A stretch of 64,000 nucleotides of DNA from Liolophura sinensis. Lineage: Eukaryota; Mollusca; Polyplacophora; Chitonida; Chitonidae. The translations under genes were made by a program, and so were the position numbers. Each line of letters begins with the position of its first letter. Position 1 is the first letter of the stretch. The DNA lies in the NCBI RefSeq assembly GCF_032854445.1, contig NC_088295.1, positions 49,091,385 through 49,155,384 on the forward strand, given 5' to 3'. The notes beneath the pieces were generated by a model that had not been told where the DNA came from, ran no database searches, and saw nothing but the letters and a program-made list of their open reading frames with translations. This document shows, piece after piece, positions 601-62,815 of this stretch.

Positions 601-619
601 CACATGGACTTCCCGGGTT

Positions 620-1905: not shown

Positions 1906-2311
1906 CATGCGTTTTAGTTTCATGGATGATAAATATTGGCCAAATGTATGTGTATATGTGTATATGTTGCCGGAGATAAATCAAAGGCGTTGCTATCATA
2001 CCCTGAAGAAACGCGAATTTCGCCGCTCCCACAAATATTTTACCCAACAATATTTTACCCAACAACGCCTACACAACCAACATAAACTGTTCAAGAATGT
2101 CTACCCATAAACTACACACAGCAAAACACTTTGTGCTTTTTTGACATTTGGGCTTTTGAAACTTACAGCATATGTAGGCCAAATCTTCATGTTAGATCCC
2201 GCCCATATTGTGCCATAAAAATGACTGCCTATAATGTAAAGCTAAGAAACGCCTTATCATCTGAAGAGTGACATATATTTTTATGAAGATCATACATAAT
2301 TTTTTCAACCT

Positions 2312-2430
2312 GGATGGTCGTGGGTTTTTCAGAGGCTCTGTCCGGTTTCCTTCCACCATAGTGCTGGCCGCCGTTATATAAGTGAAATATTCTTGAGTAT
2401 GGCGTAAAACATCAATCAAATAAAAAAATA
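2312..2430 (+). repeat. SINE family I fragment (3' half)
   Basis: Carries the family I body: GGATGGTCGTGGGTTT, then a stretch around ATAATGCTGGCCGCCG (here ATAGTGCTGG), then AAGTGAAATATTCTTGAGTA, and an A-rich tail after CATCAATCAAATAAA. Related copies occur throughout the window on both strands. The tRNA-like head is missing here. Confidence 0.8.
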
Positions 2431-3674
2431 TATCAGTTTTTTAAAATCATCAGGGCAGTTTTGAGATTGAACTGTTTTGTCGTTAAATGTTAGAAGAATT
2501 CATACTATACCATACTTGCCAAAGGTTTAAGGCAACTTTTGAGGACCTTAATTTACCATTCACCTAATATACTATAGCATAAATAACACGTCTCTCATTC
2601 GGGAACTTCTGGTGTTCACAAACACCCGGCTTTTCGAATTTCTCCATCGATGGTCTGTTCGAAATTACTTTTCACAGGCCTCAGGTTGTAGTATATGTAA
2701 TCAAAATAGCCACCTAATATTTCTGACAGGTCATGTCGTACAGGAGGACTTTTTTTTACCTTTTTGACGATAAGTGTTCAAATTCGAAACTCCCCTTTTG
2801 CAATTGATCTATCCATAAACGGCTTCTCTTTTAATTGAAATGAAATAGACAACGTGCATTGCATTTCCTAGAGATAGCTCAGAATTAGAAGAAGTAAGGT
2901 AGGCTACCGTAAACGAGATTTGTACAGCGAATCTGAAAGAATTCCGTGCGTCTACTTTTAACGTACCGGCAATCATACAAGGCGAGCAACCAAGAGGAGA
3001 ATTATGCTTACTTTTTACATTAAAATTTCAACTCAGCCTCAGTTACAAAGGAAACGTAATACAATGGAGACTTGACCTCCAAAAGTTTAATATTTGAACA
3101 GTACTTTATGTAGCTGGTATCAATCTGACCAGCTGAGGGTATACCAGCTGAGGGCAATGATGTATTGTGAGCAACTACTGCACCGCTACAATTCGTCTGA
3201 GTCAGTTCTTATGAATTCCAGGTTGTATACGAATAAGTTATTAGGCTGACTGGACCCCTACAGGTTTTACTGAAAGAACCTAGGCGAGTCTTCCATTGCA
3301 GGGGTATTAAAAAGAGTTCTAAATAAAGCGTTTCGCTTGAACGGGTCGATTGAGGTGAGGGCGTCAAAGCTTAACCCCTCGCCACTCCAGCCCCCACAAC
3401 ACGGTGCTTCATAATAACATCGACGAGTCCCAGTGCTTTCTGGTAGAGGGAGTGTCCACTCTCCCCAAGAATACGTCCCAGGCGAAACAATCTTGGGTCA
3501 GGTTAGACCAATAAGTGCGTAAACGTTTGGTAACAGAGCGTCGAGCAAAAACCACAACTTTACGACGAATTACTGATACCAGAAGGTCTGACCGTGGGAG
3601 AGAAAATTTGTGGATTACTTTTCGCAGATTTGGTAATATTACCACAGTGAAAACTTTGATTTCGAAAGGTCAAA
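2431..3674. other. Upstream region of gene A, nothing recognised
   Basis: About 1.2 kb with no supported exon. The promoter of gene A should lie near its 3' end, but no convincing TATA box or initiator was identified. Confidence 0.4.
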
Positions 3675-6600
3675 ATGTTTATCAGAACAGTTGTCATCTT
3701 GATTGCCTGCCTTGTTTGCCTTTCTTCCGTGGAGTGTCAAGTCACAGAGCGTGAGTATACCAGCTTGTGAAAGTACTCAGTAACATGGCAGTTATTCACT
3801 ATACAGTTCATAATTAGTTATTAGCTTACTCATCTTTTCTTACATGGGATGGAAAGTGCGTGAATAAAGAATTTATCTTCGAAAAGAATTTATTATTTCA
3901 TTGAACGTTTAATTTGTCTGATAGCTAAATGCTAATTTAATGCTGGTTTTGTACTAGATTTATCTATATTTACTTTATACTAGATTTTACTCGAACTTTA
4001 TCCTTATTGTTGATTAAAATTAAAGATATAGATGGTTCTCTGCACAAGGTTAATTATTTCATGGAATCGACAGGCTAACTCATGGTCAAAGTTGGTTATT
4101 AGCTTTAGGGATACCAGATACTAATGTTGAACCTTGGTTACTGGATTCAAACATTAGACCACTTCATGATCCGCTCTGGGCGTGTAATTTATGTATTTAT
4201 ATCATTGGTGTTAAACGTCGCATTGCTAAGGGAATATTCTCTGATTTGATTGAGCAATTTTAGAGGTATTTTATCATTTACGAACTCTCAAACTGTCGTC
4301 GCTGCTCTGGGTTTACTCTCTATGCCATTTTTCACACCCATAAAGTTCGAATGTCTTTACTGTGAAGAAGTTTACCAACAGCATCGCTTTTTGCAGAAAT
4401 GGAAAATTTTCTATATTATAAGGAAGGCAAATATAGTAACATCTGGCTTTTGCGGGTGTTGCACGCTCGCATAATGTCAAATCATACTGATAGCAAGTAC
4501 AGAAATTCCATCAGGATTATCATCTTGTCACTAGTGTTTTATATGACCCGTGCCATTTCCTATTAGATAAGGAAACGGATGGGAAGTACGTGTGGCATTA
4601 GATAATGGCAGCTGTAACGTGTTAACAGGAGTCACGTGTACTCTTCAGGATGAATTATGTTTCCATAGCGCTACCCTAACAACGAGTGGTCACTATCTAC
4701 TCCGGTTAGTGACACCATCCTGTCAAAAGAGGGGATCTATTTATATATGACCTACACATTGTTGGAAATGAACCTCAAGCAGACCAAACATGGAGATACA
4801 AGAACGAATTTTCATTCATCAGTATCATAGTACAGCGCCTATGTCAGGCTGTATTTGGAGTAGTGTGCTGTGAAGAGCTCACCACACAACACTCTGTCAT
4901 CAAACAGAACAGAACATATGCTGAGACATAACACAACTGAATGAAAGTGGATAAAAAAAAAAGATTTTCAAAAATGCTGAAAAAATGATAACAGAAACAA
5001 TGCTGAGAAATGACAACAGAACTTTGGCTGGAAAATGATAGTAAAAAACATGTTGGAATATACACCTTCAGAGATCCGCGTAGTCCCCAACACAATGAAT
5101 AGAACACAATGGCTGGAAAATGATAGCAAAACACATGTTGGAATATATACCTTCAGAGATCCGCGTAGTCCACAACACAATGAATAGTACACAATGGCTG
5201 GAAAATGGTGACAAAACATATACTGAAAAATGATGACAAAACAGTTAATGTCTTCAGTGATCCATATGATGCCCAACAAACTGAAAAGAACATATGCTGG
5301 AAAAAGATTTACATTTACAGATTTGGTGTGTGTGTACCAAAACTTTGAATTGGCGACTCCTTTCCCACCCTTCTCTTCCCAAATATAGGGTTAGCATGAC
5401 CAGCTTGGTATCTAAAAGGTGGTTTTGGATTATCTTACATTTAGGTTTTTTTCACTGCAATTCTTATCAGCAACATTTCACTTTGGGATAATTCCTCAAG
5501 CTTATCCGACACAAATATGACATTTTTCGTGGAAACATTTCTTTTACCTTAAGGTTGGAAAATCTGAACTGTGACGCTAATCTTTTATATACTGTCAAAC
5601 GAAAATGTCATTCTTTATTTAATGTGATGACGGACAACATTTTTAGTATTTTCATCCAGTGAAGGTTAATAAAATGCAATTAATGTCACTGCAGGTAAAG
5701 TGACAAGAGGACGTATTTCGCCGGCTATTGTCTATTGTTCCTACTCTGGTTTTAGTTTCTATGCTGTACGTCTGTCATATTCATAAAGCTCGAATGTCTT
5801 TACTGTGAAGAAGTTTACAGTTTTACCCACACTGCAAAAAAACTCCGCTGCATGTTTAACTCCGCTGTAAAGATGGGCTTTAACCGTTCAGGCCTATATT
5901 CTGACAATTGCTGAGGATGGCAACGGTGTAACAGTTGAAGTCAATGCACGGGTGTAGATAGCTTGCATTCCAATGGATACCCACTGGATATCCATGGGTA
6001 CATTAAATACGGGTTATATTTAGAGTATTGCATGGCCCTCAAAAGCTGAATCGAACAAAACACAACCAGACAGGCCCCTCACCAAAAAGGTTATAGACTC
6101 GAACCCACTTCTTCCTGATTCGGATGCGGCATTAAGCCCGGGATTTGTTTTCACAAGGGTGGTGTCGTGTTTGATACTGCGCTATACACAGGCCAGGATA
6201 CAGAATTGAGGATATTTGGTTTTCGCTCCTTACCTCACGGATGTTAATCATTACATTAGATATGTTTATTATTTTCTTTTCTTTTTTTCTTTGTGCCATA
6301 ATGTTTATGGGTCACTGATTATTACAAATAAAGGGCCAACGAAAAGTAAAATGGTGGCCCAATATAAGGCATTACTATGTTATTAGAGAAAAGGTCGTAG
6401 TTTGTATCTTTAAAAAGTGTTTTGAAGCTGTCATATTCCAGGTCTCTTGTGAGTCAGAGCGCATGACTCGGGATGGGGAGATGGGGGGGGGGGGGGCTGG
6501 CTGTTAACCATTACTGACCATGATACTTGCAAACACAAGTAAAACGTCTAGACTTTGCCTTTGATAATATAATATTTTTATCTCTCTCTTTTTAAAATAT

Positions 6601-9600
6601 ATCGTCGTCATATGACTGAAAAATAGTTAAGTACGATGTAAAACTTCAAGCATTCATTCATTCTTTCTTTAAAAGAAAGGGCACAGCGTAGTTTTGCTCA
6701 ATCTTAATTTCGACACCTTTATATCAGATCAGTGCCTCTTAACCATGTCGGACTACACAATAACATGTGAAAGAGCTGTGTGTCTTCTTTCGTGGTCCTT
6801 TTCTGTTAGGAATCTACAAGAAAAAAGTGTGTTGTTCTTCTTTATAGTGCTACCTATCTACAGTTTTATATCAGTTAAATGCTAAGAAGTCACCATTTAT
6901 CGGTACATTTATGTGATCAGTTGAATCTATTCAATTTGGTAACTTGACATTCTGCACCATCATACCGAACTGGAGCCGATTTCACAAAGAATTGTAAGTC
7001 AAACTTTAAACCCTCATCACAAAGGCTAACTTTTTCGAACTGCCTGGGAGGTGAGGTTTGAACATATTTGTCCAAGGATAATATTTTTGATTGTGGCCAA
7101 CATATGAATTTCTAAAAAAATAGACTGTAAAATTGTTTTTCAAATTTTGGCTGTCAGAAAAGTCAGGAAAGGCTTTATAGAATCGGCCTTTGTGTGATCA
7201 ACTTGTTCTCAGAGCACCGGGACAGAGTGGCTTGTGATGGACGGTGTCGTTTGCATGTTGATACAGTGAGGCAGCATTACACATACAAACGTGAATAAGA
7301 ATAAAATAATGTTGACTGGGTTTCTCTAGCAAGCAAGAAATATACTTACTAATTTTGGGTAATTTCATCCGCTCAGTATAATATATAAGAGTGGTCTTAA
7401 TGTAGGTTAATGTACGATACCATACTCATGATTCCGGTCTGCTATATAGTTACACACTTGTATGTCGATTTAATACAGCAGTCTCGTGCGCATGTATATT
7501 TATTGTCAATGTTGTTTATAATTACAGAGAACGATCCACCGGACTGGTTTTATGTATGTAGCGGCATGCCAGTACTCACCTGCCGATTTGGCTTTGTCTT
7601 AAACATTATCGGAATTTTTAATGGCGTCATTGCCGATGGCTGTTCACCAAACACGGCAGAGAATGCAGAGAAAGTGTGTGAACAAGAATTCAGCAGTTCA
7701 GTTGTGGGATTTCAGAAGAGAGCGTGTAACAACAGAACATGGTGTACTATCTTTGATTACACTGGTTATACGGTCTGCCCTGACAAAACAGAGATGCCTA
7801 CAAATTTTGGAGCGATTCACTATCAGTGCCTATTTGGTACGTACCTGTTTTGGGGTTATCAGTATACAGATACAAAAGAAGTTTAATTGAAAAGGCAAAA
7901 TTGACTGCGATGTCTCAAAGCGTTTAATTTTCAAATAAGAAAATTGTCATTTTGCGAAATCAAAGTATCACAAATTTACCACACGAGGTCAAACATTTTG
8001 TTTGCGTTTTCTTACTCTTCCTCGGTGGGGGGTAGGGGGAAGGGGGTTCTACTTGTTTTTGTATTTCAATGCAACAGTCAAAGACATAAATGTTCTACTC
8101 AAACCCGGTTTTCATCTCAGCCCATAGTTTTTGTTGGTTAAATCGCTTAAAATTAATATTATTTATAATATAATTAAAATTATTTATATGAGACAATGAA
8201 CGTTATCCCCTTGATTAATTGGATATTCACTGCTCGATAATGAGTTGATTTATTTATTGTGATAATGCATAAGCAAGACAAAGAATGTTGTGGTGTGTAT
8301 TATGAGATCATGGACATTATAAAGTGACGTATTGTTTCGTTTTATGAAGTCATGGGATCATGAATCTTATGACATATTGTTTACTGCCATAGTCATGAGA
8401 CATTGAACCTTGTAAAGGTGACGCAGTGTTTACTGCCCGACATAAGATCATGAAATAATGAACGTTTTACAGTGATGCATTGTTTTACTGCCCAACATAA
8501 CGTCATGAGGTAATGGACTTTGTCTACAGTGACGTATTATTTTACTGCCCAACATAACGTCATGAGGTAATGGACATTGTGTACAGTGACGTATTGTTTT
8601 ACTGCCCAACATGACGTCATGAGGTAATGGACTTTGTGTACAGTGACGTATTGTTTTACTGCCCAACTTAACGTCATGAGGTAATGGATCTTGTACAGTG
8701 ATTTATTGTTTAATGTATCGAAGTAAATTGTTTTTGTTAGTTGGCTACGAAGGGATGAGTTCTCCGCCAACCACAACCACGTCTACAACCACATCCACCA
8801 CAGCTGCCACCACAACCGTGAAAACAACAACAAAAAGAACGCCTGTCCCAACAACCACGTCAAAGGCAACAACAACAACATCGCCATCAACATCTGCTAA
8901 ACCTATGACTACTACTGGCCAGACTGTGAAATCAACAACCGATGGGGGCACTGTTACAACACCAACTCGGTCATCGACTCAGACTTCCACTACTAAGAGT
9001 GTTGCCGTAGGCGCCAGTGCTTTGGAAGAGGAAGAGAAAAGTGAGTCTCTCCTCTTTATACCCATTCCAATGTCCTTTATCATCTGATATCTTGCCATGC
9101 AAATGAATTGGGTTGTGTTTAGGTCTTCCATGAATGTTTTCCTTTGTTGTTGTCGTTTTTTAACATATGTATATGTCAACATACAACAATAACATACATC
9201 TTCTGTGAACTCACAGCTGATTGGCGTGCGCTGACACGTTTTCCTTTTGTCCCCTGTAAACAAGCGCGTGTGCAAAAACCAATGAACCAGTCAGAATTCA
9301 CTGACGTTGTTTTTTAGGACAGCCGAGTGTCGTTATTATTTTATTTCAAATTTTTTAACTGGCCAGCTACCAGACTGTTCGCTGGAAATCAAATAACGCG
9401 AGACCAACAAGGCTCTACGAGCTTGTGAATCCTCAAGAACGACTTTGCATTAAAGACTCTCTGAACCATTTCGTGGAGGTTTATACCTTGTAGAAACCTG
9501 TGAAATACGGTAAGCATCATTTGTCTGTATCTGCTTCGACTTTTTCAGATCGTAGATAATTTCACATTTTTCTTCTTGTAGCCAAGTTGATTGTTGGAGT

Positions 9601-10537
9601 TAGTGTCGGAGCTGTGGTTCTTATACTCATCATCATCTTCCTCGTAGAGTGCAAAAGGTAAGTAGCGATTCTGTGAACATTTTGATCGCGCACCAAAACT
9701 GTACATGGTACCTCAGCACAGTGTAAAGGTTTCCAGTGATACCATGTAACTTCGGTCAGTGACGGAGTTAAGGAGTGCCAAATTTGACTGGACGACCAAT
9801 TGGTCACCGGACTTTATACCGCTCGTTCAGTAAGAGCTCCTGTATATAATGTGTTTTATTTTCGAATTTAATAGCTTTCTTCCGTATCTTTCTGTAGCGA
9901 GAAGATAGTTTTGTTTCGATATTTATTTTTTCTATTCTCTACCAGGCAAACACGAGAACGGAAGGCGCGCAGGGTGGCTCGTTCTGCCGAGAAAGCGGAT
10001 GACAGAGAGATGGGTATCCAGCCTTTGACGGACGCGGAAAGAGCCGTTATGACAGGGGGCCACTTGGTGTACAGTGAAGAGAACAGCATCATCCCTGTGG
10101 AGCGCGAGAGGAAGTACAAGAAGAAAAGTGAGACAAACAGGGCCTATGAAAACACCGAAGAGTTTCTCCAGCCGCATTCTGAGCAAAGTATGGAAGAAAA
10201 TAATGGTCACTTAAACGGTCACCGCGATAGCGGGGTCAGCACGCTGTTTGCCGAAGATGGCAGCAACGAGAGGGCAGACGACAATCAGGACGACAAGACC
10301 GGGAGTGACGTAGAACCGGACTCTCCTGTCTCTTCGAACAACGATCCGTCCCAGCGCTCCCGACATGTGTCATTCAGTGATATGGCCATCAACACCGATA
10401 TGAGGGCCATTAATGGACAGTTTGGTGAACACGTATATGACCATCCCACAACCGTACCGTCCTCACAGAGCGCTGGCAACCCTGCCCTAGACCCTTCTGT
10501 TGCTGGGCCGGTAAGCGAAAACGAGGTACTTTATTGA
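3675..10537 (+). CDS. Gene A: type I membrane protein with SUEL-like lectin domain, mucin-like stalk and long cytoplasmic tail
   Basis: Five exons join in frame: 3675-3750, 7528-7836, 8741-9040, 9582-9657, 9946-10537 (450 codons plus stop). All introns are GT-AG, with phases 1, 1, 1, 2. Residues 1-21 look like a signal peptide (hydrophobic VVILIACLVCLSS). Residues 33-126 form an eight-cysteine domain (first Cys 36 and 44, last Cys 126) whose spacing and CxxG/Y-Q-C ending resemble the sea-urchin-egg-lectin (SUEL, Gal_Lectin) fold; it has an NRT glycosylation sequon. Residues 133-215 are Thr-rich, as in an O-glycosylated stalk. Residues 231-250 are a transmembrane helix followed by a basic stop-transfer stretch. 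The tail (254-450) contains YENT at 321, a consensus RSRHVS at 391-396 and YDHP at 418. The start codon is the only one placing the signal peptide in frame. The precise function is unknown; a cell-surface carbohydrate or ligand receptor is inferred. Gene B is a likely paralogue. Confidence 0.85.
4290..4378 (+). repeat. Dispersed repeat copy 1 in gene A intron 1
   Basis: This stretch ends in CATAAAGTTCGAATGTCTTT ACTGTGAAGAAGTTTAC and is closely matched at 5728-5818. The two copies are in the same intron and orientation. The family is not recognised. Confidence 0.6.
5031..5225 (+). repeat. 85-bp tandem repeat, about 2.3 copies
   Basis: Units start at 5031, 5116 and 5201 with GAAAATGRTAGC-like sequence and contain TTCAGAGATCCGCGTAGTCC. 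It lies in intron 1 of gene A. The minus-strand open frames across it are repeat artefacts. Confidence 0.85.
5728..5818 (+). repeat. Dispersed repeat copy 2 in gene A intron 1
   Basis: Second copy of the element at 4290-4378, most conserved over its last 40 bases. Confidence 0.6.
6480..6665 (+). repeat. Poly-G tract and SINE family II tail
   Basis: A run of 14 G lies near 6484-6497. At about 6600-6660 is the conserved family II tail (TCATATGACTGAAAAATAGT followed by TAAGTACGATGTAAAAC), without its head. Intron 1 of gene A has no other recognisable content. Confidence 0.65.
8400..8705 (+). repeat. 57-bp tandem repeat with CRE-like motifs in gene A intron 2
   Basis: Units start at 8469, 8526, 8583, 8640 and 8695 (last one partial), with degenerate copies further upstream from about 8330. 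Each unit carries AGTGACGTATTG and a second ACGTCATGAGG half-site. In one unit these form a perfect TGACGTCA palindrome at 8612-8619. The array ends about 40 bp before the Thr-rich exon of gene A. The open minus frames are artefacts (57 = 19 codons). Confidence 0.9.
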
Positions 10538-10741
10538 TCATCAAACTGTCGCTCTACTTCTCTGATTCGTCTGCATGGTTTAACTGCTAGTTTCTCGACT
10601 GACCCTAAAGTTTTAGATGCACCACTAGTTTCTGTGTTTGGACATACTTGCATCATTCGGCTAAGTTGGTTACACCATTTGTACTCATGGGTTCTCATGA
10701 TTTATGCTTACCAGTATAATTAAGCGCCAAATATGTAAGCT

Positions 10742-10747
10742 AATAAA
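10742..10747 (+). terminator. Candidate polyadenylation signal of gene A
   Basis: AATAAA about 200 bases after the gene A stop codon. It is the first canonical hexamer downstream; no transcript evidence is available. Confidence 0.45.
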
Positions 10748-10959
10748 CCTGTTAAGCCTAGCTGTTCAGACCATAATGGGGACCACTGGCTTCCTTAATG
10801 GGAACCACTGGCCTATACTGGTTTCTGCTGAAAACGCAATAATCCGTCACTATTATGATCCATCCTTCGCGAAGGATAGCTTTATTCTGTCAGTCACTGC
10901 AATCGTAATAACCCAGTGCTGGATTTGTTTGAATGGTATAGAGCTGTTTTAAGCGGAAA

Positions 10960-11197
10960 TTGGTTAGCGGGCTAGTGCAGTGTAATGGCCCAGGATCCTC
11001 TCACCAATGTGGTCGCTGTGAGTTCAAGTCTTATGGCATATCCACCTCATGCTGGCTTCCTGTCCGGCCGTACGTGTGAAGGTCTGGCATCAACCTACGG
11101 ATGGTCGTGGGTTTCTCCCGCCATAATGCTGGCCGCCGTCGAATAAGTGAAATATTCTTGAGTACGGCGTGAAACACCAATCAATTAAATAAATATA
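10960..11197 (+). repeat. SINE family I, near full length
   Basis: Starts with a tRNA-like head (TTAGCGGGCTAGTGCAG, then a B-box-like GTGAGTTCAAGTC near 11020), followed by the family I body and AACACCAATCAATTAAATAA tail. A tRNA-derived, pol III-type SINE is inferred from the boxes. Confidence 0.8.
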
Positions 11198-12230
11198 TGT
11201 TTCAAGCGATGAGGTAAGAAGTTCAGAATCATATTATAGGGCCTGCTGACTAGTATGATATTAAAATACATTGTGATATTTATTTCAAGCCGATCATAGA
11301 TAATATGAACCAATGCTTTAAGACATAATTTTATCCTCAAAGGATAAACCTATCCCACATTTGCCTCTTTCAGAATGACGTTATCAAACAATCTTTTTAT
11401 CTTTTTGAGGGTTCACAAACAGCTCCGTATTAAATTATACTTTACATGTCTGTAATTCCACAAATTACAACTGCTACTGTTGTTATTATTATTATTATTG
11501 TTATTATACAATATCCCTAATATGACGCTGTTATATGACATTTTCGTCATTAACTGTCATTAAAGTAACATCATTGCAATGAGTTCAGAAACGCGAGATA
11601 ATGTATGTCTTCATTTTGTAAATGTATTAGGTAATCTTGTGTCTTGGACAACAAGCGTTGTAAAGACATCGATGTACATGCAAGACAAATATCACATTAT
11701 TAGTAAAGTAAAAATGGTTTCAGACGACAAAGTTTCGAAGGCCTTAAGATGAAACAGTTTGCGATTATTATATCATGATGACTTTCATTTGTATGATGGT
11801 ATTTGCGATTTTCCTTTTTACTAAATAACATTTAAATGACGATAAAGAGTGTATAATAATCACATGTTGAGTTTCATTTGGTGAGCCTTACATCAAGGCA
11901 ATGTATTTGTATATTTCTGAAAATTGTGATGTTTGGACACAAGTGCACATACTTATGTTGTGGTTAAACCACAAGGGAGACAAAATATGCTAATATAGGT
12001 TGGATTTCCGCTGAGACTGGGATAACGATTGTCTGAATATAGATAAATATGAAGATCATGGATGTCGCTGAGGCTATGAAAAGTATGGCCGAAGCGATGA
12101 ATGACTGTGATGGTGATTGATTGTAAATGTTTCCGTGAAACTTCATTCTGTTTGACTGTGATAAGAGGTGGGCCGACAAGATTGTGATTTCCCATGAGGC
12201 TTGCGATTTCTTTTAATATGGCAGTACGAC
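11198..12230. other. Intergenic, nothing recognised
   Basis: AT-rich spacer with a short ATT trinucleotide run near 11485-11510. No exon, RNA gene or known repeat could be supported. Confidence 0.4.
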
Positions 12231-12239
12231 TTTGCATTT

Positions 12240-12500
12240 TCGGGCTAATGTTTTGATAGCAGTCACTGAAGTTGTAATTCCAGTCACTAACGTTGTGATA
12301 GCAGACATTAACGTTGTAATTCCAGTCACTAACGTTGTGATAGCAGACATTAACGTTGTAATTCCAGCCACTAACGTTGTGATAGCAGACTTTAACGTTG
12401 TAATTCCAGTCACCAACGTTGTGATAGCAGACATGAACGTTGCAATTGAAGCCATTAATATTGTAATTCCAGTCACTAACGTTGTGAGCAGGCATTAAGG
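12240..12500. repeat. 21/42-bp alternating tandem repeat
   Basis: About six 42-bp units, each made of two related 21-mers: AACGTTGTGATAGCAGACATT followed by a 21-mer beginning AACGTTGTAATTCCAGTCAC. Because 21 is a multiple of 3 and no stops occur, both strands give long repetitive open frames (plus strand NVVIADI/NVVIPVT; minus strand up to 199 codons). There is no splice context, start region or non-repeat domain, so coding is not supported. Confidence 0.9.
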
Positions 12501-14189
12501 TCGAAATAACATCTGTTAACTTCATGACAGAAGTCATTGAACACATGAACATTGTGAAAAAAAATCTGACGCAATGACAATTTTAAAGAAATCAAATGGT
12601 GTTTTTGACTAACAATAATATTAGAATCAGATCTTGAAAGTTAACCACCAGTTCCAGCTTGTCAGTAGAGAGTTGTTAAGAAATAACGCCCTAAAAATGT
12701 GCTACCCAAGACGGATTAACGGAGAACCTAGATCCTTGTACCTGACCAGGATTACAGGGGTTCTAAAAGCTGAACAGAATCCGGGATTACAAATGGAATT
12801 ACACACCATATCTGTATGTACAGCATTATTCAGAGTGTTCATTCAAGATCACTGACCAGTGGACAGAAATAATGTGACGAAAAGACTACAAGTGGCCAAG
12901 CGAGTCCACATGAAAGGTTTCCAAGGCTTACTCTGTTCATGGTTGACGGATTCTGTTGAAGGTTAAGTCCTAGTATGCCGTTTCTGTACCCCTTCAGCAT
13001 TCGGGTCATTACACTGAAAAATCGCTATGTTATGACATGTATACCAACTAAATAAACCTCAACGCAAGCAAATCGAAAAATACAGCTTTCATGTAACTCT
13101 GTTATCGCATGTTCTTTGATGACATCACCTTGAGTGGTATCTTTCGTCTGGCAAAACTACCACTGCAAAACATACCAAAGGTAGGCGTCGAAACAGACAT
13201 TCATATACCAACCGTCAATCGAAATGGACGTTTCGGGTCAATAACCGTAATACCAATTTTCAAAACAACATTTAACACAAACCACTAAAGAACTAAGAAT
13301 GTATGTAAAGTAGACGACAAAACACAAGGAATGTTCGATGCAAATGAATTAAATCAATTTCCAAGTCGTGTACCATGCTAGTTTTATAAGCTATGAATCA
13401 ACATGTGAGTCTCAGTTGCCCTTTGAATGCATGTTTGTGTATGCGACATGGCGACCTTATTCAAAAAAGATGAATATACAATCCCTGGCCTTGGGTAATT
13501 AAATGGCATGATGAAGCAGATTTCCAGACATTCTGGACACTACATCCATATTAACTTTCAAGAGAACTGTACTCAGAACTGTACTAAATTTGCCACATAA
13601 CACACAAGATCTATGGTAAAAACTCTTGAACGCGACGTTGCGAAATTGTTCTATAGTAATTTAGCAAAGATTCAAACTTACAAAGATGACAAGAGCATAT
13701 GAAATTCCAGGACCGGAAGCATTCAATATTTTGTGCACTTAATCTGTTTAAATTATCTTACTTCTTTTGGGACGTTTTTCACCACGAAAAATAAATTGTG
13801 ATAAATATTAACGTTAAATGATGCTGGGTGGAGATGTGAATATTAGTGGAATGCTATGAGATATTTTTAATACTAAAACAAACAAGAGCTTCTGTTTAAT
13901 CTTGCATGATGGACAACACATTGATGCATAAAATGTGTCATAATGATTCGGATTGTGCACGTAACCATGACGCCCATATGCCTTACTACTGAATGATTGG
14001 AAAACTTATATTTTCTGCACATGAACATGTGTTAGTATTTATTCTATGAGGAAAATAAGTCTCGTGGAACGTAACATTGTTACAGTGAACTTGTTTCAAA
14101 ATATCAAAATGGCTGATGTGTTCTCGTTGTCATCATATACATATACACGTGATGTGTGCTGTTGGTTTCTGTAGTGTTAATAAATTTTA

Positions 14190-14190
<1 letters not shown>
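12501..14190. other. Intergenic, nothing recognised
   Basis: Low-complexity AT-rich sequence. No exon with splice-site support and no known repeat was seen. Confidence 0.4.

Positions 14191-14192
<2 letters not shown>

Positions 14193-14264
<72 letters not shown>
14193..14264. repeat. (AT)n microsatellite
   Basis: About 36 nearly perfect AT dinucleotides. The plus-strand Ile/Tyr open frame across it is an artefact. Confidence 0.97.
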
Positions 14265-14269
<5 letters not shown>

Positions 14270-17200: not shown

Positions 17201-18159
17201 AATTACTGACAGGCCTACCGCTGTACTGTATATGTGTGGTCTGCTGACCAGTAAGTTGAACAGATTTGCAGCCTCTGTGAGAACGAAACGAATGTGTCTA
17301 TTCCTACAGACACTGTAACTTTTGTGTGTTAAAAACATAAATGATATGTGAATGACAAGCATACATCCTATTCATTACGCCATTAGACACTAAGCGTAAA
17401 ATTTACAGTGAAACCAATAAAATATGCGATGTAATTATACAGACATACCAGATCTAGTTAGTATACTTGTGATAAATCCCAGTCTGGACTGTAAGATAAC
17501 ATAAAACACCCACCAACAACAATTAGTATTCGGGTAATCGTGTAATTCTATTCAGCAAGCCATCACTGTGCGGTCTTCGTGATCGTATTCGTATTCTATC
17601 TGTGAATACTTAATACCACGTACCTTCAAAATGCCAGGAGAAACAGGAACGCTACCTTAAATCCATTCAAAACAGTTTTTTCAAGAAAATGCAGACCTGA
17701 GTTTTAGTTTCTTTCAATTTGTATTGCACATTAAAATATAACCTGAGTCATGCTTTTATTCATAGAGTGGTGTATTCAGCATGAATTTTATTGCATCTTT
17801 TTAAATACACATGGCTTGACATGTGACATGCGTCTAATATTTTATATATTGAAGCAGAATGTCTCATTTTGTCGCAACATCACTGTATTCTCATGGACGA
17901 CTCATGGTCAGAATTATTTATTGTATATAGGCCAAGTTTCTGCATGGGCGTGCGATCACATGACTTTTGATTATGACTAATCATTTCATTCTTTCGTAAC
18001 ACCATCACATTTGTCAGCTGACAATGCCTCATAATCATAATGAATTATGGGCTTCTGCGTTGCTATGGCTACGTCAACTGCGGTTTTAAGTCAGGAGGTT
18101 TGTCAGGAACATGATATCTGTTTCTTTTCCAGCATAATATGCACTGAACCTGAATTTGT
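14265..18159. other. Intergenic region with a 43-bp duplication
   Basis: No supported gene. A 43-bp direct duplication (GAAAAATAAAGGTYTTCTTT...) starts at 15383 and 15426. A short (AT)n lies near 16256-16274. Open frames of 84-118 codons at 14472-14828, 15887-16141 and 16420-16707 have no family resemblance or splice support. Confidence 0.4.
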
Positions 18160-18300
18160 TTTATTTATTTATTTACTTATTTCATTTTTTATTTACTGTT
18201 GTTGTTTAACGCCATACAAATTAATTTTTCACTTACATGATGGCGGCCAATTATATGGTTGATGGAAAGGGGAGAGCCAGGCGCAAACCAACATCATTTG
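18160..18300 (-). repeat. SINE family I fragment, divergent
   Basis: Minus-strand copy: the plus strand shows GTTGTTTAACGCCATACAAA, then TTTTCACTTACATGATGGCGG and a pattern matching the family I body, with a T-rich (A-tail) side first. Confidence 0.6.
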
Positions 18301-20334
18301 GCAAGTTGACTTTCGCACCTGTGACGTATACATATGACGCACGCCATATTTGTTTACAGACAAGTGGTCATCAACGAACGTAAACAGCACAAACTCAACA
18401 AGATCTGTAGCTATTTATATTTATTTATTTGTATATTTATCATTCAGCACAGGCTGTGAATGCAATTTGTCAGATAAAGACGTATTAAAGCCTACTTATC
18501 ATACACATGAGATCTGGCATTCAACTCAGACACGTCAAATTTCTAGACTTGAGAAATACCGCGTCAAATACATGTCAATCTACACGAGAAGCGTTCCCAA
18601 ATATGGTAATCTGTAACGCCTCCCCTGGCTCTAGATTTGGTCTTTGCACATTGATTCACAGACTAGACTACATGAAATTGATATCAGTAAATAGCTATGT
18701 GCGGATACTGTTTCCCACTATAAGACGTGCTAGTATTACTTGATTGATGTCACCGATGACGAGAGGTGTGTCAAATTATTACCATATATGGTACGGTGTC
18801 ACTCCCATGCAACAGCATGTATTCATGATCCAGACCCCTGTAGCCAATAGGACGAGATTACTGCGATAACTTTTTATATCTTCTTTCTTTAAGTATTATT
18901 ATACTGTAGGCCATATGCCATATTTTTGGCAAGCCCTGTGCCGTCGCTTCAGTGCATATAATATAATAACCATTCATATCTTTTCAGAATGTGAGCTCGA
19001 ACACACAAAAGAGCTCTCTCTTCCTGGATCGTTTGTCACAAAGGCATTCTTTTCGGGACACCATTTTTTTAAAGGTTGTATCCATGCAAGAGTCAAGGAG
19101 CAGTAATTTAGAATACATATCTTTATGCTGTGAGATACCTGACGTGTTAAGATAAAAGTATTGTGACGTTTTTGTTTACGCCACAAGAGGAAGGAAGTAT
19201 GTCGACAACAAGCCATTGAGCTTTAGAATTCTTGTATGACTTTGCCTTTTGGAAGAGGGAAGCAGTAGGTGAGACATCTGTGAGCGAGACGTTACAGACT
19301 TGCTCACATCTCTTTCTGAACCACAAATACCAACATCACTGGCAAATGAGATAGCCAGAATTGTGTAAAAATGAGGATGCCTGTGACACATCTTCCTATG
19401 TCACGCGATAATGACAAAGCAGTTGACACACATTTCTTAAGACGTAGAGGAGTAGGCGGCAGCTAGTGTGACATATATTTGTGCTGACTTTCACAATTCC
19501 TTTCTAAGTCATTAATAAATCATGTATACACCCCCGCGTTGAAGTGAGCGTTGGGTCAATAGAACGTTTATGACGAGTATGATTGAAACTTTATAGAAAC
19601 CCTCGTATGTGGTGGAGACTAACCATGGTTTCAGCACTGTTTCCTAGCACTGGAATTCTACATGCGTTTCATTCAAATTTGTCCTTTTTAGTCGTGTTAT
19701 GAACAGAAGAGACAATATTAGACTAAATGTATACATGCATAAATACGGTATCCCACCCAGCCTACAGGTTAAAAAGGCATATCTTTAACTTTAGTGAGTT
19801 TGTATACCCGAAATATCGCACTTGAGTGAACATTTAGAAAATCAAAGAGCCGCCATGATATCAATTATAACCAGTCACTAAACCCAATCACAGTTTTTTG
19901 CATACCGAACCGACGAGTTCTTGTGCTCAATATGTCCTACCAATGCACCAAACCCATTCATATATAGTTTAACCATAGCAACTGACGGGTTCTTGCGCTC
20001 AAAAATCACATCACATGACGTCAGACCCTATCACGGCATGTACTTTCGTGATATGCCGTGATATCCCGGCCGACGAGTTCATGCGTTCAAAAGATCGTGA
20101 CGCCAAATCCAATCGTAGTTTACCCACACCGAACCCACGTGTTTCTGTGTTCAACATATGCTGAAATGACACCAAATTAATCATACTACATACATAATGA
20201 TACCTGGTTCTTCATCTTTATGCTCTTTATCTTCATTATTACATTTTGGGTGAAGTCTTTTATATGTTCGCTTTTCCCAGTTTCATTCTACTATAATTTT
20301 GAAACATTCTTGAGTACGGCGTAAAAATTTACCA
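18301..20334. other. Intergenic, nothing recognised
   Basis: No supported exon. Near 19860-20150 there are three loosely repeated phrases around GACGAGTTCTTGTGCTCAA and variants, which suggests a decayed tandem duplication of about 100 bp. Confidence 0.4.
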
Positions 20335-20770
20335 CTTCGGTGGCCTAATGGTTAGAGCGGCCGTCTCGAAGTTTTGAGAATCAAATCTGCGGTCTGGTCA
20401 TACCTAAGACTTCAAAAATGGTACTTTTTGCTGCCTCCCTTAGCGCTCAACATTGAGAGGTTAATGCAAGGAAACGGAACTGGTTGGCCCGGTGTCAGCA
20501 AAGTGTGACTGGGTGGGGCGTTATGTCTGGTGTCTTTGGCATGATACTTCAGTCGCGGCAGCACTTTGACGGCATGGACTCGCCCTGCCACAAGAAGACA
20601 CAATATATGTACACACACCTCGTCATCATATGACTGAAAAATTGTTAAGTACGACGTAAAACTGCAAACATACATACACACATACATACATACATACATA
20701 CATACATACATAAAATACATAAAATACATACATACATGAATACACACATACACACATACACGTACATACA
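20335..20770 (+). repeat. SINE family II, full length, with CATA microsatellite tail
   Basis: The tRNA-like head GGCCTAATGGTTAGAGCGGC starts the element. A central part (GACTGGGTGGGGCGTTATGT) follows, and a conserved tail TCATATGACTGAAAAATTGT then TAAGTACGACGTAAA ends near 20670. The tail runs into (CATA)n at about 20662-20770. The tail is like the V-domain type SINE tails known from bivalves. Confidence 0.8.
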
Positions 20771-22345
20771 TCCGGCGTAAAACACCAATGAGATATATAA
20801 ATAAATGTATAGGTCTATTTGTTTGATGAAGATTACTTGTTTTCCATCAAATCTTTACAATACACAAATCTATAGCTTGCCTAAGGTCTGTGATGTAACA
20901 TAGACACTCTCAATCCACATAAAACTCACCGCCATCGAAAAATTCTTAAGCATGGCGTTCAGCCCTACTGAAATAAGTAACCAAAAAGTACACATAAACC
21001 TGTCGTATCAGTGAGAAATTCCACATTCATTCACAGTATAGTTTCTTCCCATAGCATTTAGAAGTATACCGGACATACGACTTCTTCAGCTGCCCCTCAA
21101 AACTGCTTACTGAACGAAGAACTTAGTAATAAAATTATTTCGTCTTTTTGGCATGACTGTGAACGGTGTCGTACGGACACTTGACTGACTCAATAATGTA
21201 ACCAAAAAAAAAATTACGCTAAATCAAGCAGAGTCACAAAAATGCATTTATCTGGGCAAGTGAAATCGTGTCTGTGTAAGAGCCATCCACTAATACGCTG
21301 TACATATGTGGGTAATGACGTAATAAACCCGACGATCCGCTTGGAATTTATGGTACAAGTAGAAACATAACGGATTATCTCACTGTGGCGTTACCAAACG
21401 CTTCTAAAGCACATAAACACGTGACAATTACCAGAGCTTAACAGGGCTTTTAAGCTGTTACATTACCTCAAAAGTCGGTTTCAGTGTCCTATACATTTCT
21501 AGGAACTCCAAAAAAGCCATAGCTATTTAGTATACAAGTAGCTCAACATACTGCATGTAAGGTGTGGTTTAGCACTTCCAGAACTAGTACAACATGGGAA
21601 GTCGCAGCTCTTCAGTCTTTTAATAGGGTACATATAAGTGTAAGGTGTGATAGTGTTGTAACTGGGTGTAACAGTTCTTTAGTCACCACAGGTGCGTTTA
21701 ATGGGCATGTTTTGACACCACTCCCGAGAGATCATCTCCACGCATGTTAGTAAAATTTAAACTTCATCAAGTTTTTATGAAGCTATACATGTAAAAGGCG
21801 TATCAGGATAAACAAGGAACGTGTTTTCGGAACAATAAACGGACCCTGATCGAGAGACTGCGTCAACATTCTTCTACAGTACAGGGTTTTTGTGTACCAG
21901 TTCTATGTAAGTGCCCCACCAGCCCGAACTTTAATGCTAGCTCTCCACGCGTGGCTGGCTATCCAGAATAGCATTCCAACTCCACGACCCGCTGTTGTTT
22001 GGACGTCAGTGAAGGAACGTCCCACAGACATTCCTCTTGGACTGAGCTCATCCGGGAAGACTGTTTGCGTAAATGTATTTTAACAGCTGATCTATGGAGC
22101 TTCTTCATTTACTCTCGCGGAAGTGAACGGAAGCAGATTTTTTTTCCTGTGCCAAAAAAACTGAATCTTTATTTGAACGGAACCGGTGCTAACTTTGGGA
22201 AATACCGACACTGAAAATCAGCCTCATTTCAGCCATACGAACCTCAGTTTATGTGTGTGGGCCTATACTTAAGCGTTGGTAAACCACCACTACATTGAAA
22301 GTTCAATATTATTTGTGTTAAAAAGGAAGGTCAATATTCAGTAGA
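20771..22345. other. Upstream region of gene B, nothing recognised
   Basis: No exon or known repeat was supported, apart from a possible SINE I scrap near 20930-20960 (AAAATTCTTAAGCATGGCGT). Confidence 0.4.
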
Positions 22346-25300
22346 ATGAAGGGATCCATGGGTTTTTTGCTGTGCTGTGTATTAGCAGTGTGTTTACTGA
22401 CCACAACGTCTGGTATGACAACACAGCCAACAGGTAAGTCCTCATTGACTACTGAAAAACAACTGCCTCTATTTTATTTTTTCTGTTTGTAACCAATTGT
22501 TATTTCGATCTTTTTCACCACACAACATGTTAACATACAACAACATTTCTTCGATCTAGTGTGCGCCTTTCTATTCAATCTAAGTATATAATTTTGGCTT
22601 CAAAACATGCATATATTGCTGAAAGTTTTTCTATCTCTTAGCGACCATCTAGTTTATCAAGATATCAGTAATTCAAGATTAATGAAAGAGCCTGATTCAG
22701 TAATACCGCTTGGCCGCCTTATATGTCTGCCATTCCAATTTTCAAAAGGTATTTCTTACCTAATCTGTTTAATTGAGACTTCTGGACATTTAAAGATAGT
22801 TTTTACGGCCGTGTACACATCAAGGGGCGGCTCCAAATCTCCAGCATGGATTAAATTTAAATCAACCTCTGAAATATGACTTACACATTTATTCCCCAGC
22901 CGTTGAAGTTAAAACTGGGAACACTCGAAAAAGCGTTATGTAAAGAGAGCCATGTGAAACATTTGACTACTGTAATATATTGAGGTTTTAGATTTTGGCC
23001 TAAGTCAAAAATATGAATTGTGGAGTCTGTTTTGCTTAAAAAATTGTGTCTTTATTTATGTATAGATTGGTGTTTTTGGCAAAATGCAAGAATATTTCAT
23101 GTATATGGCGTCAGGTTTGTGAGAACCAAAAACCTGGCAAAGCAGGCTAACTGGCAAAACCGCTACCGTGAACATGCTACCTTGGTTAAGGGCTACGGTA
23201 GATTATCCATTATGTTACACAGTCCACATTGGCCACGTGTTGACGTCAGGTCTCCAAAAATCATGCGGTTTACATAACGATATTTATAATCTGATTTTAG
23301 ACAATTCTGCATATTACAGAGCAGCATGGTGTATACCCCTCTGTATCAAATTCTGAACTAACGTAAAAAGGATTTTGCGTAATAGAGTTCCCATCAACTA
23401 TTATAAATATTGTTTGAGTCAGAGTTGAAAAGCAACCCTTAAAAAGAAAATAGTCCAGTGGGAAAAACATGTTGATATTTCATCTTGATATAAAAAAGTG
23501 TTTCTATTTTATTACATGTTAACAGTAAAATAAAAACGTGTTTACATGAAATATGAATAGTGCGTTGGTCTATAAATATCACCGAGATACGGTCTCCAGG
23601 GTATACAGTTATAGAAAGTTATCTGTCCTTGGCAGTGGTGTGGATCTGTCCACCACACCTCAATACCCGTGAATACAATGCGGATATCTGGTGTCACTTT
23701 GACACGGCACAAACTGTGACAGTTGAGAAACGGTCAATTCAAACATGAGAACAGCTGCATTGTAACAGGGACTTATGTTTTGTCCGAAGCAAATACTCAA
23801 ACGACTGGTTAACAGAGTGAACTGTATCTATCCAGGCTTTTTATCAAAGTTATAAATCCTGACTTCTATCTAAACCCTTTCATTGTGTAGCCAGTCCTTA
23901 AGAGTTGTTTGTCAAAGTTTCCACAAGATCGCGTCCGTCCTAGAATTGTCAAGACAACGTCGGTCTGTAATTTTACTACGATTTTTCCTAGGAGTGACTT
24001 TACGATCGTCTCTGGAACAGGCCTGAGGCGATTTACAGCAACATACGTTGTTCACATAGGCCTATTTCAAAGTAATGCACTGGGAACAAATCGGCATTAT
24101 GCCCAACAACGGGGCGCGGATCTGCTGAAAACAGCAAAATATTGCTAGTTGAGCCATTATGTAGCCTGACCGAGGTGGTTAGCGTGCCAGCGCGGCGCAG
24201 TGACCTAGAAACCTCTCATTAATGCGGTCGCTGTGAGGTGAAGCCCAGCTCATGAAAGTTTTGCAGCAACCTGCGGATGGTCGTTGGTTTCCAGTTTCTT
24301 CCCACCATAATGCTGGGCGCCGTCGAATAAGTGGAATGCTGTTGTCCACGGGGTAAAAAAATCACTCAAATAAAATCAATAAATAACATTATGTAGTTTC
24401 TTTGTTTACACAAAAGCCGCATAAGTACTGGTAACAATACCACCACGCATACACGAAGTTACGCCGAACTTCATACAATCACAGAGAATACAGCCAACTT
24501 TTCACAAAAATTTCTCTCATAAATCACACCATCTTGGAAACTTATCCTTGAATTTTACGTTTTTTGTTAAAAAAATTTACGACACCTTGTGATACGGCAT
24601 GACTTCTTGTTGCTCTGGAATTGGGTGTAGATCTAAATTTATATCAGACAACAGTAGTGAAACGCTTGTAGGCCCATCCTTGCATGTATTTTTAAAAATG
24701 AACTTTAAACTTATTTTTTATCAGTGAATGGCACAGAAACGACGCCGAACGCTGAAGACGTGGCAAACACTACATCAACGGCCAAAGTTACTCCATCAAC
24801 TGCCAAAGCCACAACAACAACAACAAAAGACACAACAACAACGACGAAAGTCACGCCACCAACGGCGATGGCAGGAGCATCAAAAACAACAACCCGTGGG
24901 CCTAAGATTGGTACCGTTGTTAACGAAACACCAACGCCAGGTAATAAAATCTAGTTTGGAAATTATCACCATGAAACAAAAAAACTCACTTGAAGGGCTG
25001 CGTAACCAAGTAGTACCCTATATCTGTTCTTATGTGTGTGCACTTTCCTCTAGGTCTGAGATTACTTGTATTTGGCCATCTTGTTACGTCATTCTGTCTG
25101 GCCTGTTTCTTATAGCAAATCTAAACTAAGGCCTATCCTTTGCCCGCCAGCAGTTTCTCCAGACGAATTCTTACGCACAGAAGAAAGTGCTTTTAAACGA
25201 TGATCCTGATTGGTCATATTTAAAGAGGAGTTATTGGGTGCGCTGAAAGAACTCCAGGTGCAGGGATCACGACGCGATCTTCGAATTAAGTCCAATATTT

Positions 25301-28075
25301 CAAATTAATTTAAAATTCTTGTTTCTTATGTTATAAGGTCGCAATTTTGCTTATTTACAACGTAAATTCTGGGTAAGTTATTGTTCAACAAATTTCACCA
25401 AAGATAACGGATAGGAGCACACCAAATTTAATAATAAGCGAAGTTTTGACTTAAGCCTTAGATCACCTTGTGATCCCTCGGTCATATCTAAAAAGCGCCA
25501 CGTGAGTACTGGTACGTAAGGATCAGCTGTTAAATCTGACTTGAATGACTGAGATCGAGATTGGCTAATCGTTCAGCAGAGTTATTCACACGTGATCCAC
25601 TAAGTGCATGTATTGTAGCGTGAGGTAAGAGTCCCAGCATACATGTGTCGCTCACAATACAAAAGTCATAAAGCCTTGCTGAATTTTTTGCTCTTTTTTC
25701 GCTCACAGCACCAACGTACTATTACGTGTCCACATGTAAGCCCATAACGATCGAGTGTCCACAAAAGGACTGGACAGTCCACGTTAACCGGGTGTTCGGA
25801 GGGAGGAAGTTGGACCCCACGTGCACGGCTGACCGCGCCGAGTGCTGTAAAGCGGAAATGGACAATAGGACGGAGTGCCTAATTGAGAACAAAGTGGTTG
25901 TCAATTTGCAGAGAGAGTACTGTCTGAAAACTCCTGGAGAACCGTGTCTCATCTTCGAGCACAGCGCCCATTACATAGGCTGCAAGGATAACTTAGTCAG
26001 CCAGTACACAGTGGTCGAGTTTTACTGCGCATATAGTAAGTAAACGTTTTGGAGCCTCTTGCACAAAAATTGAGTGTAAACTACCATGGCAAGACATGCT
26101 TTTAACATGTGTTGCCATGATGGTTACAATCAACTTAAGCTATGATCGCTTTGTGCGAGCGGCCTCTGCTCTCTAAGTCTTGGGGGAATATGACACAAAC
26201 TTGTGAAGATGGAAGATGAATTTTTCATGGATTGAGTGTTTTGTATATAATATCGGTATACGGCTAAACTGAGCTGGTTTGTTGGTATCAGCACTTAACA
26301 AAAAATTGAGGCTACACTTTGTTGGCCTTTCCATAAAGCCATACAGAACGGCTCATTAAGGTGTATTTCAATCTGAACCTAAAATCCTGCTTTGTGAAAT
26401 TAGTGCACAGACTTTCTGAATCACCTGTTTCCAAATGATTTGTAAGGAGTGTCGATAGATGTGCATGAAAGATTGGGGTTAAACGTCATACTTTAACAAT
26501 ATATAAGAAACAGATGCAATAAACCATACCTTATCTTAAGCCATTTGGCAAGTTTCTGACGTTTTAACTTTGGAAATTGTAATTGTGTTTGACTGTTAGA
26601 CGACATTACTAAAAACTGTTTGGCTAAGTTCTTGGTTAAATATTTCATTGTTGACTTAAAATTATGTGCAAATGGACCCACTGCACGATAATGTATGATG
26701 AAATACGACAAATTGGAATTAAAATTATGTGAAAATGGACACACTGCACGATAATGTATGATGAAATACGACAAATTGGTCTTAAAACGACATAACGACA
26801 TATTATGTTTAGTGCTATTGCTCAAAACCAAAACGGAAACGAAACTTTAATATGCCGTGGATAAGACTGGGCAGCCTAAGACATACAAACAAACGTGATG
26901 CCGTAAATTACTGTGTACATTATTTTTTCGAACAGTTCCCATACCGACCCGCAATGATACCACTGTAATCACAACACCCAGTACAACCGCCGCGCCGTCC
27001 ACCAGGAACACTCAACCCACAACCACAATTGGACGAAATACCAGCACGCCAAAACCTCGTAAGTCGCTTTCCAATACGTCAGCAGATTGCCTGTAAATAA
27101 TCTAAAACAATTAGCATAATATTTTTTATGGGGGTGGGGGAGGTGTTGTGTAAAAACACCCCTCCAAAATTGCATGGAGCTTTTAAACTACTGGAACGTT
27201 TCCTACACAAATTGCTTTTTGTATGTTTTGTAGAATTTTTTCCGCCAACTTAACTAAACGATACTTTTTTCTTCCTGTGGCACAGAAAATGCAAGATGTT
27301 AACTGAGATTTTGGTGTTGACTATTTCAGTGCCCATCGCCATTATCGCCGGGTCAGCAGGAGGCGGTGTTTTTCTCATTGTCATTATCGTCGTCATTGTG
27401 TGTTGCGTGAGGTAAGATTAGTGTCCGTGTCAAAAAAATTCACGTCGCAATAACGTTGTACTAGATGGTATTTCACAAACGATATTTTGCAATGATGCCG
27501 AAGCATACAGTAGGAAAACAAGAAAAACCTCCTCATGCAAAACCAAAAACTTGCAGACGGGAGCTTCAATGTATTGTCTAGAGAGCCCACTGCACTCAAG
27601 TCATAGCTCCTCCAGATTAAAAACTAAGGAGAGATTAAAAAGCAGACAGTTTATAGAGACAGCTGGCGTCTCAGAACGATGAAAAAATTGCAATAAGGCT
27701 TTATTTATTTTTGGGTTAATAACAATCTAATTTGTTTTTGAAATGCAATAAATGCATAAATGCATCTCGGAACGCACGGCTATGAGACATATGCGAACGC
27801 GGTGGTTAGTTAGCAGATATTTTGATTATCATAACGGTAAAGTTATATGCCGTTTTATGTTGTCGCGAGAATTTCACTCCTGGTCGTTTTTCTTTGACAG
27901 AATGCGAAAACAAAGAATTATGAAACAGGACATGACTAAAGCCCAGCTCGGTATGAACCCAGTGTCAGACATTGGCGTTAATTACATGGACGCTGAAAAG
28001 GGGACTGATCGTGATCCGGATATCATCAAAACAACTCCAAAAGTAGCTAATGGAAAGCCGTATAACTCCAGCTAA
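22346..28075 (+). CDS. Gene B: type I membrane protein with SUEL-like domain between two Thr-rich stalks
   Basis: Six exons join in frame: 22346-22433, 24725-24940, 25709-26035, 26936-27058, 27330-27411, 27901-28075 (336 codons plus stop). Introns are GT-AG, with phases 1, 1, 1, 1, 2, the same logic as gene A. Residues 1-23 are a signal peptide (GFLLCCVLAVCLLTTTSG). Residues 30-101 are Thr/Lys/Pro-rich. Residues 105-208 form a ten-cysteine SUEL-like domain (first pair C111/C118, FGGRKLDPTC, ending VVEFYC) with one NRT sequon. A second Thr-rich stalk spans 211-251 and the transmembrane helix 253-276 (VFLIVIIVVIVCC). The cytoplasmic tail is only about 58 residues and shows no similarity to gene A's tail. 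Further sequons (NGT, NTT, NDT, NTS) lie in the stalks. The first ATG opens the signal peptide; an in-frame ATG four codons later is possible. Function is unknown; surface receptor or adhesion protein is inferred. Confidence 0.83.
24161..24387 (+). repeat. SINE family I, full length, in gene B intron 1
   Basis: Complete head GACCGAGGTGGTTAGCGTGC (A-box like), GGTCGCTGTGAGGTGAAGCC (B-box region), body with ACCATAATGCTGGGCGCCG, and an A-rich CACTCAAATAAAATCAATAA tail. The rest of this 2.3-kb intron holds nothing recognisable. Confidence 0.8.
26661..26788 (+). repeat. 63-bp direct tandem duplication in gene B intron 3
   Basis: Two copies starting at 26661 and 26724 share ATTATGTGMAAATGGACMCA and ATAATGTATGATGAAATACG with few mismatches. 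Confidence 0.85.

Positions 28076-34632: not shown

Positions 34633-46950
<12,318 letters not shown>

Positions 46951-49354: not shown

Positions 49355-62815
<13,461 letters not shown>

Follow-up and report, generated by a model that had tools for sequence, protein, structure and literature searches.

A tandem family of genes for predicted SUEL-headed, single-pass receptors was found in the genome of the chiton Liolophura sinensis, and two of its members, genes A and B, lie in the 64,000-nucleotide stretch analyzed here (contig NC_088295.1, positions 49,091,385 to 49,155,384 of the forward strand; hereafter the window, with positions counted from its first letter). The two genes form the right end of a 112-kb same-strand array on chromosome 1 (C1) in which 10 SUEL exons are intact and further copies are broken. 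A first-pass annotation, made from the letters of the window, had described A and B as an adjacent pair of mucin-stalked, SUEL-like type I receptors and had proposed a search for more copies beyond the left edge, where such copies were indeed present. We regard it as moderately probable that the family as a whole comprises receptors with protein-binding heads and tyrosine-signaling tails that serve in recognition.

Architecture of genes A and B

The spliced model of gene A encoded 450 amino acids (aa) and that of gene B 336 aa, neither with an internal stop, and GT-AG was present at all nine junctions of the two models. Intron phases were 1,1,1,2 in A and 1,1,1,1,2 in B. Both genes follow a common plan, namely, a signal exon, a SUEL exon (phase 1-1), a Thr-rich exon (1-1), a transmembrane (TM) exon (1-2) and a tail, to which B adds an extra Thr-rich exon upstream of the SUEL exon.

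In gene A (plus strand), exon 1 (3675..3750), with the start codon, a signal peptide and a phase-1 donor, encodes a hydrophobic N terminus and was found again in the signal-exon scan described below. Exon 2 (7528..7836) carries the SUEL-like domain, recognized by profile searches, and has a duplication breakpoint at ~7626 inside it. The Thr/Ser-rich, mucin-type stalk of exon 3 (8741..9040) was assigned by composition, and the TM helix of exon 4 (9582..9657) by hydrophobicity and a module scan. Exon 5 (9946..10537) encodes a 198-aa cytoplasmic tail with 5 Tyr, one YxN site and the C terminus EVLY. For its part, gene B (plus strand) begins with a signal peptide exon with a phase-1 donor (22346..22433), identified by hydrophobicity and the signal-exon scan, followed by a Thr-rich stretch N-terminal to the domain (exon 2, 24725..24940; module scan), whose donor, GTAATA, is weak. 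The SUEL-like domain of exon 3 (25709..26035) was recognized by profile searches and by the fold matches of an AF2 model. The Thr-rich stalk (exon 4, 26936..27058) was located by composition and the module scan, the TM helix (exon 5, 27330..27411) by hydrophobicity and the module scan, and the last exon (27901..28075) encodes a 58-aa cytoplasmic tail with 2 Tyr.

The Cys domain was confined to one exon per gene, with 8 Cys in A and 10 in B. Read in 19-residue windows, both proteins were hydrophobic at the N terminus and had one strong segment C-terminal to the stalk, spanning residues 227-256 in A and 251-286 in B; weak windows (1.62-1.66) were present in A at residues 38-64, within the Cys domain. 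Thr made up 33-37% of the stalks, which measured 42-102 aa. By this predicted architecture A and B are type I receptors, and the clean splicing, the hydrophobic segments and the Thr-rich stalks bear out the first-pass annotation in this respect. One correction to it concerns B, in which Thr-rich stretches flank the domain at either end. The exon models are predictions; the module scan picked other acceptors for A (upstream for exon 2, internal for exon 3), and these two acceptors, together with the donor of B exon 2, are uncertain.

Relationship of the cysteine-rich heads to SUEL domains

Searched alone, neither A nor B matched the Pfam family PF02140 at E ≤ 10. The direct profile match that the first-pass annotation had looked to was thus lacking, and homology was established through intermediate relatives. 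Of the 20 family domains, 14 were recognized by PF02140 at E ≤ 10, the strongest match being 1.5e-8; in a genome search with the same profile, L005 was the only one of seven divergent copies above the Pfam cut-off. A hidden Markov model (HMM) of the seven divergent domains from that search, recruited without A or B, was run against the 1211 open reading frames (ORFs) of the window, and only B (1.1e-5) and A (4.1e-4) rose above threshold, the next best scoring 0.18. A profile of 18 paralog domains, some of them recruited by a profile containing A and B, gave 8.8e-10 and 3e-9 for the two domains, with the next at 0.5.

When a 20-domain family profile was compared with the PDB, all 10 matches at E ≤ 1 were SUEL lectin domains, the best being SUL-I (5h4s; 5.4e-24); CSL3 lay outside these matches. 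The hhalign score against ten PDB SUEL domains was equaled by none of 200 shuffles for B and by 1 of 200 for A, and shuffles that kept the Cys positions equaled it in 0 of 100 (B) and 1 of 100 (A) cases. Convergence was therefore rejected in favor of homology, given such scores and the exclusively SUEL matches of the family profile in the PDB. In the 20-row alignment, six Cys columns were invariant and two nearly so, with 8 to 12 Cys per domain. A pattern of Cys spacings, designed with knowledge of A and B, had four matches in a six-frame scan of the window (A, B, 39195 and 60983, the last a repeat); 50 block shuffles yielded no match, which speaks against chance.

An AF2 model of the B domain built with paralogs reached a pLDDT of 83.5, while the model from the single sequence (48.4) was uninformative. 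The closest folds to the former in Foldseek were latrophilin lectin domains, with 5h4s and 2zx0 among the top 9; a second fold comparison also placed B nearest to latrophilin lectin domains, although no family is excluded by being absent from its matches. The model thus supports a SUEL fold for the B domain, the one that it covers, in line with the structure prediction suggested by the first-pass annotation. Judged through their relatives in the same genome, the domains of A and B are SUEL domains; the HMM and PDB matches agree with the earlier description of SUEL-like domains with 8 or 10 Cys. The family has its Cys framework and fold in common with the SUEL/rhamnose-binding lectins (PF02140; SUL-I, 5h4s; CSL3, 2zx0).

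The sugar-binding residues are another matter. According to an excerpt of PMC2430599, mutating either the Glu that follows Cys1 or the Lys in loop 2 of mouse latrophilin-1 strongly cuts or abolishes rhamnose binding, and its authors favor noncarbohydrate ligands for receptor SUEL domains. By alignment position, the Glu was present in 2 of the 20 family domains (L039 and L042b) and the Lys in none. A has Ser and Asn at the two positions, and B has Lys and Gln, so canonical sugar binding by their heads is unlikely. SUL-I and CSL3 carry repeated SUEL domains with both residues, whereas A and B are membrane anchored and have neither.

A tandem array shaped by segmental duplication

The module scan covered C1:49.000-49.155 Mb (2 kb of it unread) with settings derived from A and B. 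On the plus strand it returned 10 SUEL matches, 8 TM matches and 8 Thr-rich matches that fall in 6 distinct exons; on the minus strand of the same region it returned none, and no module was found in the 36 kb to the right of B. In a control on ten other 10-kb stretches, read on the strand opposite the gene, there was one match. Signal-peptide-like exons with phase-1 donors lay upstream of six SUEL exons or genes, in a scan that was less specific (three unrelated matches on the plus strand and one on the minus strand).

From left to right, the array comprises g1 (49.006 Mb), g2 (49.019 Mb) and g3 (49.028 Mb), then broken copies at C1:49.037-49.049 Mb, between g3 and g6, followed by g6 (49.058 Mb), g7 (49.067 Mb) and g8 (49.076 Mb), all on the plus strand. 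Next comes a locus at C1:49.085/49.088 Mb, where a single signal-peptide-like exon precedes two SUEL exons and no TM exon was detected, and then A and B. Self-BLAST showed that C1:49.0216-49.0491 Mb is duplicated at C1:49.0698-49.0990 Mb, with 90-96% identity over most blocks and 83-85% where it approaches A. The right-hand end of this duplication occupies window positions 1..7626 (plus strand) and carries A exon 1 as well as the A SUEL exon up to its 99th base. The duplicated segment ends at about 7626, within that exon, and in the other copy the A exon is therefore truncated. Three broken SUEL copies, L037:4768-5090, L037:6510-6958 and L038:6831-7085, belong to the left half of the duplication, the last being the truncated copy of A exon 2, fused to sequence near the TM exon of another member. 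Extra partial SUEL exons, some with stops, were found just 3' of the main SUEL exon (L039:7135-7670, L040:5633-5887 and L016:7224-7478) and are best described, from their position and state, as products of exon-level duplication and decay.

The duplicated segment also contains, at window positions ~500-1900, a GC-rich, minisatellite-like array that is open in several frames; GC skew over positions 1-2000 was 0.42.

Relatives, phylogeny and selection

Ten further SUEL domains were found elsewhere on chromosome 1; copy numbers are lower bounds, the flanks read covering only part of C1. The locus at 54.00 Mb has the order SUEL-Thr-TM, that at 56.36 Mb SUEL-Thr-TM-tail, and those at 47.46 and 50.89 Mb SUEL-TM-tail, while at 48.36 Mb three SUEL exons alternate with three Thr exons before the TM exon. 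The single SUEL domain on a mucin stalk, as described in the first-pass annotation, thus holds for A and B but not for the whole family, which includes this locus and the two-SUEL locus of the array. Among 14 loci examined (50.98, 52.90 and 62.74 Mb were left out of the count), 12 had a TM exon and 9 had a Thr-rich stretch, either as an exon or as an open frame; the scans found no Thr exon at g1, g6, g7, 47.46 Mb or 50.89 Mb. The SUEL exon at every locus carries no weight, since the loci were found by SUEL. Outside the cluster, none of the 18 candidates scored was close to the g2-type domain (best, 0.18). Other SUEL exons were L001, L004 and L008 (C1:17.60 Mb) and L002, L003 and L010 (C7:1.63 Mb), four of the six being above the Pfam cut-off.

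In the tree, A joined L042a (89/82) and B joined L036 (89/81), and one starred branch (99/99) parted ten cluster domains from six PDB domains; L013 was placed among the PDB sequences. The tree left 15 of 23 inner branches open and contained many long rows, the A/L042a join being among those flagged by the tool. The two genes are adjacent, as the word pair had implied, but the tree does not support them as a recent duplicate pair, each grouping with a different domain of the family. BLAST of full-length A against B with the low-complexity filter off gave an E value of 7.6e-10, the best stretch pairing the Thr-rich stalks.

For recent duplicates, dN/dS of the SUEL exon ranged from 0.36 to 1.79 and was below 1 in 8 of 10 pairs; for the tails it was 0.45-0.82 (four pairs, two with a tail from a broken-copy stretch). 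A and B have no intact recent duplicate, and the values rest on other family members. These ranges therefore point to constraint and leave diversifying selection unproven, and positive selection was not shown by dN/dS. The best reading of the family, from its copies, is turnover by birth and death.

Cytoplasmic tails

Nine predicted tails, pooled, contained 17 YxxPhi sites, compared with 6.7 in shuffles, and none of 2000 shuffles reached 17. Sixteen of these sites fell in the tails of g2, g3 and the 50.89- and 56.36-Mb loci; the 48.36-Mb tail also has YxxPhi. The count for the immunoreceptor tyrosine-based inhibition motif type in the same tails was marginal: 4 sites, against 1.3 in shuffles, of which 105 of 2000 had as many. 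The paralog tail exons are predicted from splice site and open frame alone, and the count omits g7, g8 and the 49.0506-Mb tail as near copies, 54.00 Mb for want of a clear tail, and loci at which no tail was found. The tails of A and B contain no YxxPhi and no [ILVS]xYxx[ILV], so the signaling-type tail of the first-pass annotation fits some paralogs but not these two genes in that respect. Five tails compared across subfamilies had no significant similarity, and tail homology between subfamilies was accordingly not found among them.

Individual motifs offer leads. The A tail has one YENT site, which we take to resemble a Grb2-type SH2 site. Its C terminus, EVLY, and that of g1, EMLY, presumably resemble class II PDZ ligands, a similarity that we treat as a lead only. 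The g2 tail contains YEGI-x12-YEKI, which fits the spacing of the immunoreceptor tyrosine-based activation motif (ITAM). The 56.36-Mb tail (C1:56.359 Mb, minus strand, in L024) has six YxxPhi sites, including TYNQL and NPYDVL, which resemble ITAM sequences.

Possible function and alternatives

The array, the architecture, the SUEL homology, the broken copies, the residue loss and the predicted paralog tails rich in Tyr motifs were all read from the DNA, and on this basis a mode of action can be proposed. The Thr-rich stalk, probably O-glycosylated, would raise the SUEL head off the membrane, and the heads would recognize proteins, or nonrhamnose ligands, at the cell surface. Ligand engagement would then lead to phosphorylation of tail tyrosines and SH2 recruitment, with docking via the one YENT site in A and via several YxxPhi sites in the g2, g3, 50.89-Mb and 56.36-Mb tails. 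Copy-number turnover would change the recognition repertoire, and the likeliest setting would be self/non-self or microbe recognition on hemocytes or epithelia. A bolder form of this proposal, which we hold to be unlikely, would make the array a molluscan recognition complex of paired activating and inhibitory receptors, combining one ectodomain plan with varied tails (short, PDZ-like, YxxPhi-rich or ITAM-like). Such receptors would detect self/non-self or microbes by means of a lectin fold that has lost the binding of its sugar.

The organization is comparable to that of immune-receptor arrays with tyrosine-motif tails, such as the NK complex, the Siglecs and the cnidarian and tunicate allorecognition loci. 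The array itself, broken copies, segmental duplication, a shared ectodomain plan and differing tails are common to both, but the ectodomain fold of those arrays differs from that of the SUEL family.

The main competing explanation, to which we give a limited though real chance, is that these are adhesion or guidance receptors like EVA-1 or latrophilins, whose heads bind endogenous partners on neighboring cells with no immune role. The nearest folds of the B model are latrophilin lectin domains, and in the SUEL domains of membrane receptors the residues for sugar binding are often missing, proteins being their supposed ligands (PMC2430599, excerpt). The same excerpt describes EVA-1/C21orf63 as single pass, with a SUEL ectodomain devoid of the sugar-binding residues, as in A and B, but with two SUEL domains, whereas A and B (compared with EVA-1 by description only) have one each, Thr-rich stalks and membership in a multicopy tandem family. 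Latrophilins (ADGRL) are seven-TM proteins with further domains (PMC2430599, excerpt); A and B have one TM helix, and a Pfam search of both found no seven-TM or GAIN family. On the other hand, EVA-1 and latrophilins are conserved low-copy genes, and it is unusual for guidance receptors to form an array in which some members are broken and others recently duplicated, as seen here.

A role as gamete or egg-surface recognition proteins seems improbable to us. Reproductive proteins also duplicate fast, in keeping with the quick turnover of the family, and excerpts of the literature note that SUEL was first characterized from sea urchin eggs (PMC2430599) and that sea urchin SUEL lectins have egg-protecting functions (PMC8878817), but the long Tyr-motif tails of several paralogs would be needless in a coat protein. 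We give a slightly smaller chance to membrane mucins of a mucus-covered epithelium, in which the Thr-rich stalk would do the work and the SUEL head would be a cap: the Thr content of the A and B stalks and the Thr-rich exons or frames at most loci speak for it, but those two stalks are short, and a Thr exon is more often missing than the TM exon. That A and B are largely nonfunctional relics of a decaying array is the least credible alternative, for although several neighboring copies are broken, A and B keep their frames open through all exons (5 in A, 6 in B), most of the splice sites are good, and other intact duplicates mostly have SUEL dN/dS below 1.

In this chiton the SUEL fold has come to form the head of receptors whose family is expanding. 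The membrane proteins in which it is mainly known, namely, latrophilins, EVA-1 and PKD1-like proteins, are conserved receptors with few copies, and chiton immune receptors have, to our knowledge, been little studied. If the recognition reading is true, C1:49.00-49.12 Mb would be a concrete locus for the molluscan self/non-self question. Among the matches listed, the open-license PMC literature contained no SUEL-mucin-TM receptor family; an excerpt of PMC4053784 reports 11 SUEL proteins in Acanthamoeba, about half of them with EGF domains. The present family fits the proposal that receptor-attached SUEL domains recognize proteins rather than, or besides, sugars (PMC2430599, excerpt).

Other features of the window

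To the right of the receptor cluster, an ORF at 37189-37530 (plus strand) encodes an acidic stretch and, C-terminal to it, a sequence with a partial match to the PRMT3 C2H2 zinc finger (PF21137; E = 6.3e-6; 26.4 bits, the cut-off being 27) and is, by this match, the N-terminal part of a PRMT3-like gene. A C2 domain (PF00168; E = 1.1e-16) is encoded at 50350-50598 (minus strand); the ORF beside it, at 51665-51991, had no Pfam match. We take the C2 ORF and the neighboring minus-strand ORFs to be a synaptotagmin-like gene. Finally, a 1398-aa open frame at 58758-62954 (minus strand), with no Pfam match at E ≤ 0.01, is rich in Glu, Asp, Ser and Thr and contains an internal repeat at ~61000-61300.

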